Origin: Streptomyces xiamenensis
GTDB taxonomy: Bacteria; Actinomycetota; Actinomycetes; Streptomycetales; Streptomycetaceae
Length of the DNA: 64,000 nucleotides
Reading direction: 5' to 3'
NCBI RefSeq assembly: GCF_000993785.3
Contig: NZ_CP009922.3
Coordinates: 2,666,001 to 2,730,000 of the forward strand
Positions 44,772-50,446 of the stretch are shown in pieces; positions within the stretch are counted from its first letter, which is position 1; the number at the start of each line of letters is the position of its first letter. Both the position numbers and the translations under genes were made by a program. The notes beneath the pieces were generated by a model. The model made no database searches, was not told the DNA's origin, and worked only from the letters and a program-made list of their open reading frames with translations.

Positions 44772-45029
44772 TCAGTAGCGGTAGCGGGCCTTGATGATCT
44801 TCATTTCCTTGTCATCGGTGCGGTAGACGAGCCGGTGTTCGTCATTGATCCGCCGCGACCAGTAACCCGTGAGGTCACCCTTCAGCGGCTCCGGTTTGCC
44901 GATGCCCTCGAAGGGGGTGCGTTGGATCTCGGCGATGAGACGAGTGATCCGCCGGGCCGTCTTCCTGTCCGACGCGAGCCAGAACAGAAAGTCGTCCCAG
45001 GCGGCCGGGTCGAAGTTGACGTTCCTCAC
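44772..45029 (-). CDS. yoeB: YoeB/Txe-family ribosome-dependent mRNase toxin
   Basis: 85 residues, the normal YoeB size. It starts [23 protein letters not shown]; the [28 protein letters not shown] stretch (about 42-69) carries the conserved Glu, Arg and His-Arg, and it ends KARYRY with the C-terminal catalytic-site Tyr. YoeB cleaves mRNA at the ribosomal A site and is neutralised by YefM. The start overlaps the antitoxin stop by 4 bp. It lies inside the 1.1-kb unit bounded by the tRNA-Ser repeat. Confidence 0.95.
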
Positions 45030-45301
45030 TCCTCACCCCCAGCCATGTCCCGGAGCTCGTCGAGCGTCCTGGCGACTTCGGCCTCGCCCGCTTTGTCCCG
45101 GGCTACCGCCTCCATGAGCCGCTGGGCATTGGCGGGGGAACGCAGAAGGTAGATGGTCTCCTGCCAGGAGTCGTAGTCATCGGCGGACATCAGGACGGCG
45201 TCCCCGGCCTTGGACGTGATCCGCACCGGGTCGTGGTCGGTGTTCACACGTTCGATGAGCGGGAACAGGCTTTTTCTGGCTTCACTGGCACTGATACTCA
45301 T
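45026..45301 (-). CDS. yefM: YefM/Phd-family antitoxin
   Basis: 91 residues from the ATG at 45301. The N-terminal Phd/YefM DNA-binding domain is [34 protein letters not shown]-terminal acidic helix ([14 protein letters not shown]) would wrap the toxin. It binds and blocks YoeB and represses the operon. It is transcribed before the toxin, away from the tRNA-Ser duplicate. Confidence 0.95.
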
Positions 45302-45307
45302 GCCCAC

Positions 45308-45808: not shown

Positions 45809-46012
45809 ATGAGTCGGACAGTCATCGTCCTGGTCGCGGACGTAGCGAAAGCCCTCGGGACGAGTACCAGGAAGGAGACCGTCAACACCGCTCTTCGCGA
45901 GGTGCTGGAGAGCCGGCGTCGCGCTCTCGCCCTCGCCCGGCTGCGGGCTGCGGCCGGAGACGGTGCATTCGATCTGGAACTTTTTGAGAACAAGGAGAAC
46001 TACCGCCGGTGA
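45809..46012 (+). CDS. vapB: VapB-type antitoxin
   Basis: 67 residues. The N-terminal part with DVAKALGTSTRKETVNTALREVLESRRR (about 11-38) matches VapB ribbon-helix-helix antitoxins. The C-terminal AFDLELFENKENYRR binds the toxin. It overlaps the start of the vapC remnant by 4 bp (GTGA). Confidence 0.88.
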   Translation: MSRTVIVLVADVAKALGTSTRKETVNTALREVLESRRRALALARLRAAAGDGAFDLELFENKENYRR

Positions 46013-46432
46013 ATGCGGCCCAGTTCCTGATCGACACGAGCGTGCTCGCGCGGTTCATGCGCGGGGATGTGGAGCAGTACGGCTGGGACCAGGCCGCCGC
46101 GGCCGGACTCATCGCGACATGCCCCGTCACCGAGCTTGAGTTTCTCTACAGCCCCCGGTCGGCCGCCGACCGAGCACGCGGTATCGACGGACATACGGCT
46201 GATCGTCGGCTGGGTTCCCGTGGACGACCGTGCCTACGATCGCGCCTGGCACGTTCAGGAAGCCCTCACCGAACAAGGCAAACACCGAAGCGCGGGAGCG
46301 GTCGACCACGTCGACGCGGCGACGGCCGAGTTACAGGGCCTCACTCTGCTCCATCGCGATCACGACTTCGAGTGCATCGCCTCAGTGACCGGTCAGGCCC
46401 TCCAGTGGTACGGACCGGAGCAGGGCAAGTAG
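46009..46432 (+). pseudogene. vapC: VapC PIN-domain toxin, broken by a frameshift
   Basis: The first frame gives AAQFLIDTSVLARFMRGDVEQY with the initial catalytic Asp, up to TELEFLYSPRSAADR. From about 46165-46195 the homology moves to another frame (GWVPVDDRAYDRAWHVQEAL, then the acidic end ATAELQGLTLLHRDHDFECIA). One extra base (or two missing) explains it. The residue pattern before ATAEL also differs from a normal VapC (DHVDAATAEL). The toxin is therefore probably dead while its antitoxin remains intact; a sequencing error is the alternative. Confidence 0.8.
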
Positions 46433-46868
46433 GCCGACGGCAGTGGTGGCGGTCCCGGTTGCGCTTTACCGTCGGAACAACGCCGTTCAGGGAATCGGCC
46501 CGCGTGACCCGCACCGCACGTCGGATGCTGCTGGAGTTCCGTGGCGGCGTACTCGGCTGCATAACGCACCCCATGGGTCCCGTGTCGCACGGCGGCCTCG
46601 GGACGGAGGTCGAGATGCCCGGGGATCAGCATCTGAAGGTCGTACTCGTGACCGTGACGGACAAGAATTCCTTCCCCGTCACGGAGGGCACGGCTGCGGT
46701 GCCCGAGGTGCGGGATCTCGGCCATTTCGAGGGTGAACTCGGCGTCGGGGTGGGGGGCGCCCTCCCCGCCGATGAGCCGCTGTCCTATCGGGTCACCGTC
46801 AGGGAGAAGCAACTCCTCGTCGACATCGCGCACACCGGGCACGGCCGCCACTAGGTACCAGCGCGCGC
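46433..46868. other. Gap after vapC; possible but unproven open frame
   Basis: A plus-strand frame from about GTG 46503 to 46854 (117 codons, GC-rich third positions) has no recognisable domain or clear ribosome site. The opposite strand has a competing frame. The first 80 bp resemble 45458-45537. I call no gene with confidence. Confidence 0.3.
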
Positions 46869-48311
46869 CTACGCGTCCGCCAGCAGGGGGTCGTAGGGGG
46901 TGGAGCGGTGGCGGCCGGTCATGAAGGCGAGGAAGTCGCGGACGAACGCGCCGCGCGAGTAGGCCTCGTGTGACCCGGCCTCCGGGGTGCGGTGGAATCC
47001 GGTGCGGAACAGGGCGCGGTACTCGGCCTCGTCGATGACGCCGTTGCCGTCCGTGTCGGTGACGTCGAAGAGGACTTCGGCCACCCGGATCAGCGCGGGA
47101 CCGGCGTGGGTGGGGGCGGCCGTGGTGTATTCGGCCTTGCTGATGCGGCCGTCGCCGTCGGTGTCCAGCGCCGTCTGGAGTTCGCGCCACCAGTCGGCGA
47201 ACGCCTGGTAGAGCCGGGTCTCCTCCGGTTCCTCCAGGTCGAGGCGGGTCGACAACTCGCGGGCCATGGCGGCGAGGTCGGGCCATTCCAGGAAGCCGTC
47301 GCCGGTCTGGTCGAGTACCTGGGTGAAGAACTCCTCGGCGCTCCGGGAAGCACCGCCGCCCCCGGACGGCTCGCCCCGGTCGGCGAACGGAGTGACCAGC
47401 CGCAGCAACGCGCCCGCCTGCTGCATCCGTTCGCGCAGTGCGGTGAGCGTCGCGGCGTGTGGGGAGTCGCTGCCCGGGGAGAGATAGGCCAGGTCCATGA
47501 GGGCGTCGGTGCGGACCCAGCCGTCGGGCAGGAAGCGGGCCAGGCCGGTGGCCAGGTAGGCACCCTGCATGAGGGTCTGGGCGCCGGGGATCTCCGGCAG
47601 GCCGGCCCGGCGGCGGAACGGTTCGGGGAGGGACGCGACCGTGATGGTGCCCAGAGCGGGCCCGGCGACCGCGCGGCCGGCCGCCCAGAGGGTGGGCAGT
47701 CCGGCCAGCAGCGGCGGTGCCGGAAGGTGGTCGAAGAGCCGGTACAGGATGATCCGCAGCGCCTCGGTGTTCTCCAACTCCTCCTCGACCACCCGGTCGT
47801 AGTACCGCCAGAACTCCGGGAGGGTGGAGGGCAGCCGGTCCGCGTCCACGCCGAGGGCCGCCATGAAGGCGCGGAATTCGGCGTAGAGCTGCTCCATCTC
47901 GGCCTGGTCGAGCGCCTGTCCGCTGAGTCGGCACATGGTGACGGAGCTTTCGAAGAGCGTCGCGACCACCCAGGCCCGCACCTCGGGGTCCATCGCGTCG
48001 TACGGCCGTTCCTGCGCGTCGGTGCCGCTCAGCCGGGAGTGCAGCCGGTTGAGGCGCGAGGCCTCCTTCTGCCGCACGGCCTCGTCGGCGCCGAACATGC
48101 GCTGCAGGCTCACCAGGGTGTTGCGCAGCCGTCGCCACGGATGCATCACGAACGGCGAGTTGTCGATCAGCGCCGCGCCGACCTGGGGATGGGCGGCCTC
48201 CAGGACCGTGGCGCGGACGACGGCGAGCGCCCACCGGGGGTCGTTGAAGAACCGGTGGAACTGCGTGTCGGGGCCGAACAGGGTGCCGGGCGGTGTGCCG
48301 GTGTCCGTCAT
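46869..48311 (-). CDS. MpaB/Lcp-like (DUF2236) oxygenase with EF-hands
   Basis: 480 residues. The N-terminal DUF2236 region has EAAHPQVGAALIDNS (about 38-52), the HP-x-V/G motif of the MpaB and latex-clearing-protein superfamily, and a further His in RLFDHLPAPP (about 191-200). These proteins are heme oxygenases that cleave isoprenoid chains (MpaB: farnesyl side chain; Lcp: polyisoprene). Three EF-hand-like loops follow at about 334-345, 383-394 and 419-430, the latter two canonical (DTDGDGRISKAE, DTDGNGVIDEAE), so calcium may control it. Its start overlaps the stop of the upstream cis-prenyltransferase by 4 bp. Confidence 0.85.
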   Translation of the reverse strand: MTDTGTPPGTLFGPDTQFHRFFNDPRWALAVVRATVLEAAHPQVGAALIDNSPFVMHPWRRLRNTLVSLQRMFGADEAVRQKEASRLNRLHSRLSGTDAQERPYDAMDPEVRAWVVATLFESSVTMCRLSGQALDQAEMEQLYAEFRAFMAALGVDADRLPSTLPEFWRYYDRVVEEELENTEALRIILYRLFDHLPAPPLLAGLPTLWAAGRAVAGPALGTITVASLPEPFRRRAGLPEIPGAQTLMQGAYLATGLARFLPDGWVRTDALMDLAYLSPGSDSPHAATLTALRERMQQAGALLRLVTPFADRGEPSGGGGASRSAEEFFTQVLDQTGDGFLEWPDLAAMARELSTRLDLEEPEETRLYQAFADWWRELQTALDTDGDGRISKAEYTTAAPTHAGPALIRVAEVLFDVTDTDGNGVIDEAEYRALFRTGFHRTPEAGSHEAYSRGAFVRDFLAFMTGRHRSTPYDPLLADA

Positions 48312-49081
48312 CGTGGGGGTTCTCCGTTCGCGTGCGGGGCGATGTCGCCGAAGCGGCGGGCGCGTCGCCGGTAGGCGTGCAGACACTCCACGAAGTGCGG
48401 GGCGCGGAAGTCGGGCCACAGCACCGGCGGGAACATCCACTCCGCGTACGCCACCTGCCAGAGCATGAAGTTGGAGATGCGCTGTTCGCCGGAGGTGCGG
48501 ATGACGAGGTCCACGTCGGGGGTGTCCGGGTAGGGCAGGTGGGCCGCAAAGTGCCGCTCGTCGACGGCGTCGGCCGCTATGCCGCTGCGGATGAGGGAGC
48601 GCGCCGCCTCGACGATGTCGCCGCGTCCGCCGTGGTCGAACGCCACGGTCAGCGTCATCCCCCGGTTCGAGCGGGTCAGCGTCATGAGGTCGGTGAAGTC
48701 CCGGGCCAGCGGGGCGGGAATCCTCGGGTCGCTCACGCCGAGGAACCGGCAGCGGATGCCGCGCGCGTGCAGCAGCGGGGCGTGTTTGCGCACCACGCGG
48801 CGCACCAGGCGCATGAGGAAGTCGACCTCGCCGGCGGGGCGCCGCCAGTTCTCGGTGGAGAAGGCGTACAGGCTCAGCCACTCGACACCGGCCGACCGCG
48901 CGGCCGTGATGACGTCGATGACGGTGCTCTCGGCGGCCCGGTGGCCGGAGGTACGGGGCAACGAGCGCTGGGCGGCCCACCGGCCGTTCCCGTCCATGAC
49001 GCAGGCGACGTGGCGGGGGACCGCGCCGGGCCGGGCCGGCGGTTCCGGGGTCGTCAATGGGCGTCCACCGACCTGTTCCAT
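48308..49081 (-). CDS. uppS: cis-Prenyltransferase (undecaprenyl diphosphate synthase family)
   Basis: 257 residues from the ATG at 49081; an ATG at 49171 would add a Gly/Ala-rich leader. It shows MDGNGRWAAQR (catalytic Asp), STENWRRP and the C-terminal RTSGEQRISNFMLWQVAYAEW signature. The usual NYGGR motif reads FDHGGRGDI. The enzyme condenses isopentenyl diphosphate in cis to make polyprenyl diphosphates. It is probably not the housekeeping copy because it is coupled to an oxygenase. This spelling suggests a different chain length or pathway. Confidence 0.88.
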   Translation of the reverse strand: MEQVGGRPLTTPEPPARPGAVPRHVACVMDGNGRWAAQRSLPRTSGHRAAESTVIDVITAARSAGVEWLSLYAFSTENWRRPAGEVDFLMRLVRRVVRKHAPLLHARGIRCRFLGVSDPRIPAPLARDFTDLMTLTRSNRGMTLTVAFDHGGRGDIVEAARSLIRSGIAADAVDERHFAAHLPYPDTPDVDLVIRTSGEQRISNFMLWQVAYAEWMFPPVLWPDFRAPHFVECLHAYRRRARRFGDIAPHANGEPPR

Positions 49082-49426
49082 CACCACAAGTGCCCCCCGT
49101 ACTGCCGGTCGACCGTCCCCACGACGCGCGGGGCCACCGGCGTCGGCCGGGTCTGCGGTGCCCGGCGGCACGGGCAGCGCCGGGATGTCCTGCCGCCCGC
49201 GCGTGCCACTCAGCAGTGTGAGGCCGTCGGATCCCGGCCGCCCTGTTCTCTCGGCACGTTCACCCGCCGGACTCCTGTCCTATTAACTGCCTCACGTGCG
49301 CGGCCAGCCTGCTCCGGCCCCGGGCCCGGCGGAACGAAATCCGCGCATCCCCCGATCCGTACCCGGAAGTCGGGTAGCGTCCCAGACCCACCAGCACACC
49401 GAGCGACGAAGAGATCACCGAACGCC

Positions 49427-50446
49427 ATGACCGGCCCCCGCCCCGCGCCACCCCGTACGACATGGCGGCACCCCGTGGTGATCGTTCTGCTGCTGGTGGT
49501 CGTTCCCCCGGTCGGCATCTGGCTGGCCTGGCGAGGCGGTTGGCGGGGGCGGGGGAAGACGGCGGCGATGGGGCTGTCCGCCCTGTGGTGCGTCGCGCTC
49601 GTGGTCTCCGACCCGCCCGAGGAGAAGGCAGCCGGTGACGCCGAGATGGCGGTGGCGGAGATCGGCGACGACAAGGGGGCGGACCTCCTCGAAGTCCCCG
49701 ACTACACCGGCCAGAACCTCGCGACCGCCATCGCGTCCGCCGCCGCGCACGGCTACCCGGCCGTGTCGCACGACGCGACCGACGCGGACGCGCGGCAGGT
49801 GGTGGACGGCAACTGGACGGTCTGCTTCCAGAACCCCGGGCCGGGAACCACGATCTCCCCGGGGGGCGAGATCGACTTCGCCGTGGTGCGCCGGGAGAGC
49901 CCTTGCCCGCCGGCCGATGGCCTCGCCGTGGTGTACCCGAGGATGCCGTCCGTCACCGAGATGACCTTCGGCGAAGCTCTGGGGCTGCTCGCCGACCACG
50001 CGTTGACGGGCGTCGAGGCGCGCAACGCGTACCGGGACGTGGCACTTCCGAGCCATCCCGGCGCCTGGACGGTCTGTTTCCAGAGCCCCGGCGCCGGTGA
50101 GGAGGTGACGGAGCCGGAAGAGGTCGCCGTGCGCCTGTCCGTCGCCGAACCCGGGGTGGAGTGCCCGGCGTTCGACCGCGCGCGGTTGATCCCCGAGCCG
50201 GACCCGGAACCCGTGCCCATGCCGGAGCCCGCGCCCATGCCGGTGCCGGTGCCGGTGCCGGAGGCGGCCCTCGAACCGACGGCCGTCTCCGGTGGCTCCG
50301 GTGAGCCGGCTGGTTCCGGTGGCCTCGCCTACTACCCGAACTGCGACGCCGTCCGCGCGGCCGGACAGGCGCCGCTGTACCGCGGTGAACCGGGATACCG
50401 CAGTGGGCTGGACCGGGACGGCGACGGGGTCGCCTGCGAGACCTGA
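49427..50446 (+). CDS. PASTA-like/Excalibur domain membrane protein
   Basis: 339 residues. An N-terminal hydrophobic segment and a second one (VVIVLLLVVVPPVGIWLAW and MGLSALWCVALVVS) come first. Two PASTA-type modules follow (VPDYTGQNLATAIASAAAHGY and MPSVTEMTFGEALGLLAD), each with a WTVCFQxPGxG signature. A Pro/Glu repeat linker (EPDPEPVPMPEPAPMP) leads to a C-terminal Excalibur domain (YYPNCDAVRAAGQAPLYRG then DRDGDGVACE). The latter is an extracellular calcium-binding domain. A cell-envelope role is likely; function unknown. Confidence 0.82.
   Translation: MTGPRPAPPRTTWRHPVVIVLLLVVVPPVGIWLAWRGGWRGRGKTAAMGLSALWCVALVVSDPPEEKAAGDAEMAVAEIGDDKGADLLEVPDYTGQNLATAIASAAAHGYPAVSHDATDADARQVVDGNWTVCFQNPGPGTTISPGGEIDFAVVRRESPCPPADGLAVVYPRMPSVTEMTFGEALGLLADHALTGVEARNAYRDVALPSHPGAWTVCFQSPGAGEEVTEPEEVAVRLSVAEPGVECPAFDRARLIPEPDPEPVPMPEPAPMPVPVPVPEAALEPTAVSGGSGEPAGSGGLAYYPNCDAVRAAGQAPLYRGEPGYRSGLDRDGDGVACET

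Follow-up and report, generated by a model that had tools for sequence, protein, structure and literature searches.

The window, a stretch of 64,000 nucleotides of the Streptomyces xiamenensis genome (G000:C1:2666001-2730000; the genome is a single contig of 5,961,402 bases), carries two overlapping genes on its minus strand, one encoding a cis-prenyltransferase (cPT, a polyprenyl diphosphate synthase; P0002, 257 amino acids in length, positions 48308-49081) and the other a putative haem oxygenase of the MpaB/Lcp type (DUF2236; P0001, 480 amino acids in length, 46869-48311) with an EF-hand domain at its C-terminus. The stop codon TGA of the cPT gene (48310-48308) and the ATG of the oxygenase gene (48311-48309) share an ATGA (48308-48311, minus strand), an overlap suggestive of translational coupling that had been reported in an earlier note on this DNA with coordinates that proved exact to the base. 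The start of the cPT is ambiguous by a few codons (ATG at 49081 or GTG at 49087), and the stop codon of the oxygenase ends at 46869. Because the downstream neighbour (46525-46854, AMIN-like) is convergent and the upstream neighbour (starting at 49427, with PASTA and Excalibur domains) is divergent, the pair probably stands alone as a two-gene operon. Both proteins are small and neither shows a long hydrophobic segment.

P0002 matched the full PF01255 profile (residues 28-245; E 7.8e-72; 241.8 bits against a cut-off of 27), bearing out its earlier identification as a cPT. Conservation was followed in 91 distinct homologous pairs, obtained from 101 loci after removal of L106 and L150 (short or frameshifted) and of eight duplicate oxygenases. 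Residues D30, N32, H47, S75, N78, W79, R81, R195, R201, S203 and E214 are present in all 91 cPTs and R34 in 90, and we take their catalytic roles to be those of the E. coli UppS residues. The motifs MDGNGRW, FSTENW, RTSGEQRISNF and YAE are invariant or nearly so in this set, and the alanine of LYAFSTENW presumably marks the enzyme as one of the long-chain kind. Homology to undecaprenyl and decaprenyl diphosphate synthases (7cpn, 2vg2) extends over nearly the whole length (E 5.8e-70 to 7cpn) and includes the same catalytic motifs. Unlike these enzymes and the other cPTs of Streptomyces, the paired cPT belongs to a separate clade with the signature FDHGGR (48623-48640, minus strand; D149 in 90 and H150 in all 91 homologues), where the other cPTs in our tree read NYGGR or GYGGR. 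That tree covers 24 sequences drawn from eight genomes (six pair-bearing, two lacking the pair); the six paired cPTs fall into a single clade (support 97/98), separated from the remaining cPTs of their genomes. Each of the six pair-bearing genomes encodes two further intact cPTs; the paired cPT is an accessory third enzyme and, as an extra paralogue beside two others, would therefore be free to make a special product. It also differs from the other Streptomyces cPTs in being absent from most sampled genomes and in having a gene that overlaps an oxygenase gene. A single-sequence structure model of the cPT, with a mean predicted local distance difference test score (pLDDT) of 42.3, was set aside and not used. 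The genome holding the window also has a broken cPT gene (G000:C1:633704-634524; L006 and L007) split over two frames, probably a pseudogene or a sequence error.

Residues 20-249 of P0001 (47565-48254, minus strand) form an MPAB_Lcp_cat domain (PF09995; E 1.5e-50; 172.9 bits against a cut-off of 23), a match shared by 33 of 33 homologues, and its haem-site residues are kept, which upholds the membership of the MpaB/Lcp family noted before. On the distal side these residues are D50, R61, N64 and T65 (48117-48164, minus strand), the presumed counterparts of E148, R164, K167 and T168 of LcpK30; H91 (48039-48041, minus strand), the presumed counterpart of LcpK30 H198, would be the proximal haem ligand. 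R61, N64, T65 and H91 are invariant in all 91 homologues, and when the protein is aligned to further DUF2236 members (A3, 16 rows) the invariant arginine and histidine coincide with R61 and H91. According to the available text on LcpK30, the residues listed for that enzyme belong to the haem site, with R164 and T168 required for activity (PMC5522427), while the accessible part of the report on Nro1 of Gordonia equates D57, R68, K71 and R72 of that enzyme with E148, R164, K167 and T168, and its H104 with H198 (PMC12724181). The D50-R61-N64-T65 spacing is identical to the D57-R68-K71-R72 spacing of Nro1 (positions as given in PMC12724181), so that the two enzymes have a D-R-K/N-R/T arrangement in common. 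Our DUF2236 profile reached LcpK30 weakly (E 0.14) and over a stretch outside the haem residues; the mapping therefore rests on the family alignment and the Nro1 spacing, and was made by alignment and spacing rather than from superposed coordinates.

An AlphaFold2 model of the oxygenase built from 33 sequences (mean pLDDT 74.6) displays the same fold as the t-anethole oxygenase of Stenotrophomonas maltophilia (8s1j; Z 18.2, root-mean-square deviation 3.4 over 251 aligned residues, 11% identity) and as LcpK30 (5o1l, Z 15.8, root-mean-square deviation 4.1 over 249 residues; 5o1m, Z 15.2; 12% identity), which by alignment also has the haem-site acid, arginine, threonine and histidine in common with it. 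These fold matches were obtained with VIA-align; nearly all of the 50 Foldseek matches listed were EF-hand proteins, and in PDB sequence searches with P0001 and with its profile the best 60 of 235 and 60 of 364 matches, respectively, were all EF-hand-containing chains. From its family and conserved residues the oxygenase would be a b-type-haem enzyme. Since no hydrophobic N-terminal segment was detected before the domain start at residue 20 (by 19-residue hydropathy, no signal-peptide predictor having been run), it probably stays in the cytosol, unlike Lcp, which is described as extracellular in the available text (PMC5522427). A second PF09995 gene of the same genome (G000:C1:3275852-3276376, L002; a 453-amino-acid open reading frame) shares 19% identity with the oxygenase of the window in alignment A3.

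EF-hand models match P0001 at residues 381-437 (EF-hand_7, 44.3 bits against a cut-off of 30), and the three EF-hand-like loops that had been noticed in the sequence were located at residues 334-345 (DQTGDGFLEWPD; 47277-47312), 383-394 (DTDGDGRISKAE; 47130-47165) and 419-430 (DTDGNGVIDEAE; 47022-47057), all on the minus strand. Loop 1, the least canonical of the three and outside the best Pfam stretches, has aspartate at positions 1 and 12 in all 91 homologues. D1, D3, D5 and E12 of loop 2 are each found in 90 of the 91, as are D1 and E12 of loop 3. In the model, residues 320-467 match the S. coelicolor EF-hand protein 3akb (Z 14.3) and residues 317-471 match calerythrin (1nya, Z 14.1); the oxygenase C-terminus has the fold of these proteins but is fused to an oxygenase and its fourth EF-hand is degenerate. 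Judged by their conserved residues, the loops are likely to bind calcium. A related clade of EF-hand MpaB proteins (L058-L061 and L092) shares about 35% identity with the oxygenase of the window, and the fourth EF-hand is intact in L058, L059 and L061, three of the four clade members aligned, the sequence of the fourth being truncated in the alignment. Inspection by eye places a DUF4142-like gene upstream at L058 and a polyketide synthase at L061.

The oxygenase clade was detected in 35 of 150 genomes of the genus (66-80% identity, the window's own excepted; next matches at most 39%) and the cPT clade (search at E 1e-85) in 34, all of them among the 35. Adjacency of the two genes was checked in all 34 shared genomes (30 loci, then four), and cPT identity ranged from 78% to 87% across the 29 genus loci besides the window's own. 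The 35th oxygenase genome (L074) encodes only residues 165-480 of the oxygenase, with no cPT nearby. Pairing in this sample is strictly one-to-one. The earlier note had held that its proposal would fall if the pair did not co-occur in other genomes; co-occurrence was found in 34 of 34 cPT genomes and 34 of 35 oxygenase genomes. In a class-wide sample (394 genomes) all 14 newly fetched intact homologues were paired (49-84% identity), five of them in another family (f17), while a fragment (L094) was unpaired, with no cPT within its 3.3-kb locus. A scan of named genomes yielded 52 loci, 51 of which encode the oxygenase, each with a cPT adjoining on the same strand (51/51); at least seven of these loci come from genomes that the genus sample also contains, and at the 52nd locus (L151) the match is confined to the EF-hand part. 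The phylum sample (396 genomes) gave four matches at E 1e-40, all within the genus of the window, one of which belongs to the EF-hand clade that has no cPT. Chance pairing was rejected on the genus, class and named-genome surveys. The oxygenase was also found, at 67-74% identity, on seven Streptomyces plasmid records, and the pair was present on all three linear plasmids examined of these seven, where the genes are annotated as uppS and 'oxygenase MpaB family protein'; two of the three have transposases encoded close by, and an annotated 4-nucleotide overlap likewise occurs on two of the three.

Judged by the nearest start, the 4-nucleotide overlap occurs at 28 of 30 genus loci, and an in-frame start that gives it is available at 57 of 65 paired loci; at L073 the oxygenase is broken across two frames. 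When the neighbourhoods of the window and the 51 named loci were clustered (with 6 kb of flank as far as contigs reach, some loci having short flanks, e.g. L106 with 3.1 kb), the cPT and oxygenase families were present in 52 of 52 and the next families reached only 5 of 52, so that no third travelling gene family was found. A larger biosynthetic cluster was accordingly rejected, no third family having exceeded 5 of 52 loci, nor 3 of 21 in a cruder first clustering; the latter partly merged or missed overlapping frames (the two families appearing in 20 and 15 of 21 loci) and the 52-locus count is preferred. The gene pair is kept across two families and on chromosomes and plasmids while its flanks differ.

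Upstream of the cPT gene lies a two-part element, GTnC-N3-GGGTGA followed after 37-41 nucleotides by CAnnCTG (49214-49272, minus strand), possibly an activator site plus a −10 box. Of 87 upstream regions, 63 contain the pattern G[G/A]GTGA-N38-40-CAnnCT; on the reverse strand none does, and 200 shuffles, a control that takes no account of common ancestry, gave 0.1 on average and never more than 2. The 87 regions were derived from 100 sequences, of which 10 that were identical to others, of insufficient length or lacking a cPT match were dropped to leave 90, and then three near-duplicates. The element was not found in the remaining 24 of the 87, to which every one of the five regions from the other family belongs. 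In the genome of S. xiamenensis the two-part pattern matched once and its reversed control also once, so that uniqueness there carries no weight; what counts is that the pattern is conserved from locus to locus. A spacing held this constant would be compatible with an activator binding ahead of a −10 box. GGGTGA is a half-site of BldM targets, whose 16-bp sites are given as TCACcCgnncGgGTGA or TGnnCCGnnCGGGTGA in the accessible part of the source (PMC4125116), and no full BldM or BldM-WhiI site of either form was matched upstream of the cPT, the GGGTGA half being all that is common to both. BldM/WhiI control, tried as a candidate, thus came down to a half-site match, and control by BldM may serve as a lead only. 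Scans for sigma-70 promoters and terminators gave no match.

Enzymes of the MpaB/Lcp family cut C=C bonds of isoprenoids or polydienes, and the product of a cPT is chemically a short poly(cis-1,4-isoprene). Poly(cis-1,4-isoprene), the substrate of LcpK30, is in chemical terms the chain type of cPTs. In the texts available, LcpK30 is described as cleaving C=C bonds of polyisoprene (PMC5522427) and Nro1 as cleaving nitrile rubber (PMC12724181). Because the two genes are paired one-to-one, overlap, and encode proteins that are likely to share a location, the cPT appears to make what the oxygenase uses. We propose that the pair forms an accessory, self-contained intracellular two-step unit in which the cPT builds a cis-polyprenyl chain and the oxygenase, with a calcium-binding module attached, cleaves or oxidises it, and we put the probability of this reading at roughly 0.5. 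The dedicated cPT would make a cis-polyprenyl diphosphate, perhaps of medium to long chain length, from isopentenyl diphosphate and an allylic primer; the co-translated, cytosolic b-type-haem oxygenase would then attack a C=C bond with O2, cleaving or oxidising that chain or its dephosphorylated form; and the C-terminal EF-hand domain would bind calcium and stabilise or gate the oxygenase. The most likely outcome would be a polyprenoid that is shortened or carries a carbonyl. Control of the oxygenase by calcium is a guess, and a broader version of the proposal, in which a cassette of promoter and two genes, disseminated over chromosomes and linear plasmids of Streptomyces and activated via a conserved site of its own, would encode a calcium-gated pathway dedicated to cleaved cis-polyprenoids, a new class of bacterial lipids or signals built by the dedicated cPT and cut within the cell by the rubber-oxygenase-like enzyme, is put forward tentatively and seems to us somewhat doubtful. 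If the two enzymes do act in sequence, no more than these two would be needed to reach a new class of lipids, the oxygenase bringing a calcium-binding module with it. The unit is carried by more than one-fifth of the genus sample (34/150).

Several observations weigh against this two-step reading. The support for it consists of genes, conservation and a predicted fold, from which activity, product and haem are predicted, and DUF2236 enzymes also take non-isoprenoids, 8s1j being a t-anethole oxygenase. Seven of the 91 homologues lack an acidic residue at position 50, the other 84 having D or E there, and by alignment the distal lysine K167 of LcpK30 is replaced by N64 in all 91; K167 itself is given as only 59% conserved among Lcps (PMC5522427, available text). 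Eight of the 65 paired loci have no start at −4, seven starting between −38 and +62 and one having none near, and on the third plasmid the annotated oxygenase start lies 143 nucleotides past the cPT stop. The correlation between the protein distance matrices of cPT and oxygenase across the 91 pairs (r 0.81, with none of 2000 permutations as high), in itself a point in favour of the two-step reading, is uncorrected for species relatedness, and common genome ancestry contributes to it. Neither a phosphatase nor a transporter nor any other gene was found to accompany the pair in the 52 clustered neighbourhoods. Finally, no cPT lies beside the EF-hand MpaB clade in any of four loci (L058-L061, about 7 kb on each side), and all four genomes are without the cPT clade, so the architecture works there without a cPT. 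Since this unpaired clade exists, the EF-hand fusion is older than, or independent of, the pairing with a cPT, and by itself it does not point to a polyprenyl substrate.

In one alternative, the cPT would provide a lipid carrier or a polyprenyl donor, and the substrate of the oxygenase would be another molecule of the same pathway, for example one prenylated or glycosylated by enzymes encoded elsewhere. The existence of an EF-hand oxygenase clade without a cPT and the several substrates taken by DUF2236 enzymes (t-anethole in the case of 8s1j) speak for it; we nevertheless regard it as unlikely, as no third family exceeds 5 of 52 neighbourhoods, which would leave the genes for additional enzymes at other sites, and as the one-to-one pairing suggests a direct link between substrate and product. 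Alternatively, the unit might tune the polyprenyl phosphate pool, the oxygenase destroying cis-polyprenyl carriers and the cPT replenishing or diverting them, for example during development or as protection against carrier-directed agents. Developmental timing would fit the GGGTGA half-site of BldM targets in the upstream element (PMC4125116, in the part available), and the distribution of the pair is patchy and partly plasmid-borne; yet the BldM consensus finds no match for its second half, an operon that both makes and destroys the same lipid would be wasteful, and the pair-bearing genomes retain two other cPTs, all of which make this explanation improbable. The globin-like fold, the EF-hands, the replacement of the distal lysine by N64 and the tight pairing with a cPT could also be accommodated if the protein were no oxygenase but a haem or calcium sensor, or a structural partner, controlling the cPT. 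This we consider decidedly improbable, given that R61 and T65, the presumed counterparts of residues described as needed for LcpK30 activity (R164 and T168; PMC5522427, available text), are invariant in 91 of 91 homologues, beyond what a sensor would need. A merely accidental gene order, with unrelated functions for the two genes, is scarcely credible, since the pair persists despite differing flanks in both families and occurs on chromosomes as well as on each of the three linear plasmids examined.

Each part of the proposed two-step unit is of a known family, and in database annotations each of the two genes already bears a name of its own. Rubber in the environment is known to undergo oxidative cleavage of its cis-polyisoprene, but we know of no dedicated oxidative cleavage of a cell's own polyprenyl chain. 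To our knowledge, Lcp has no EF-hand domain, and fungal MpaB, which is bound to the endoplasmic reticulum and acts on a prenylated phthalide, has neither a cPT partner nor EF-hands. This enzyme of mycophenolic acid biosynthesis, from which PF09995 takes its name, breaks a C=C bond in a farnesyl chain according to the accessible text of PMC12724181. What sets the paired oxygenase apart from 8s1j and Nro1 is the EF-hand domain at its C-terminus and the cPT gene that overlaps its own. An MpaB-family gene of Streptomyces sp. AC04842 adjoins lcp1 (PMC9108482) and is likewise a Streptomyces 'oxygenase MpaB family' gene, in a rubber-oxygenase setting; its neighbour is an lcp gene, and the portion of that report available to us mentions neither a cPT nor an EF-hand. 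No description of the pairing, of the promoter-plus-two-gene cassette or of an EF-hand fusion on a DUF2236 oxygenase was found in the open-access literature, which misses most subscription papers; this agrees with the earlier note, to whose author no such described pair was known.

The divergent gene upstream of the pair (49427-50443, plus strand) encodes PASTA repeats and an Excalibur calcium-binding domain and is absent from the list of the 22 families that recur most often across the 52 neighbourhoods; this second calcium motif beside the pair may be a coincidence. A VapBC-type toxin-antitoxin locus (45809-46432, plus strand) has its PIN-domain part spread over two frames (46009-46200 and 46067-46429), each matching part of PF01850 and both slightly under the cut-off, and its vapC looks disrupted or looks to carry a sequence error. 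A YoeB/YefM toxin-antitoxin pair (44772-45307, minus strand) lies between a dnaX-like gene, recognised by eye, and the cPT/oxygenase cassette.

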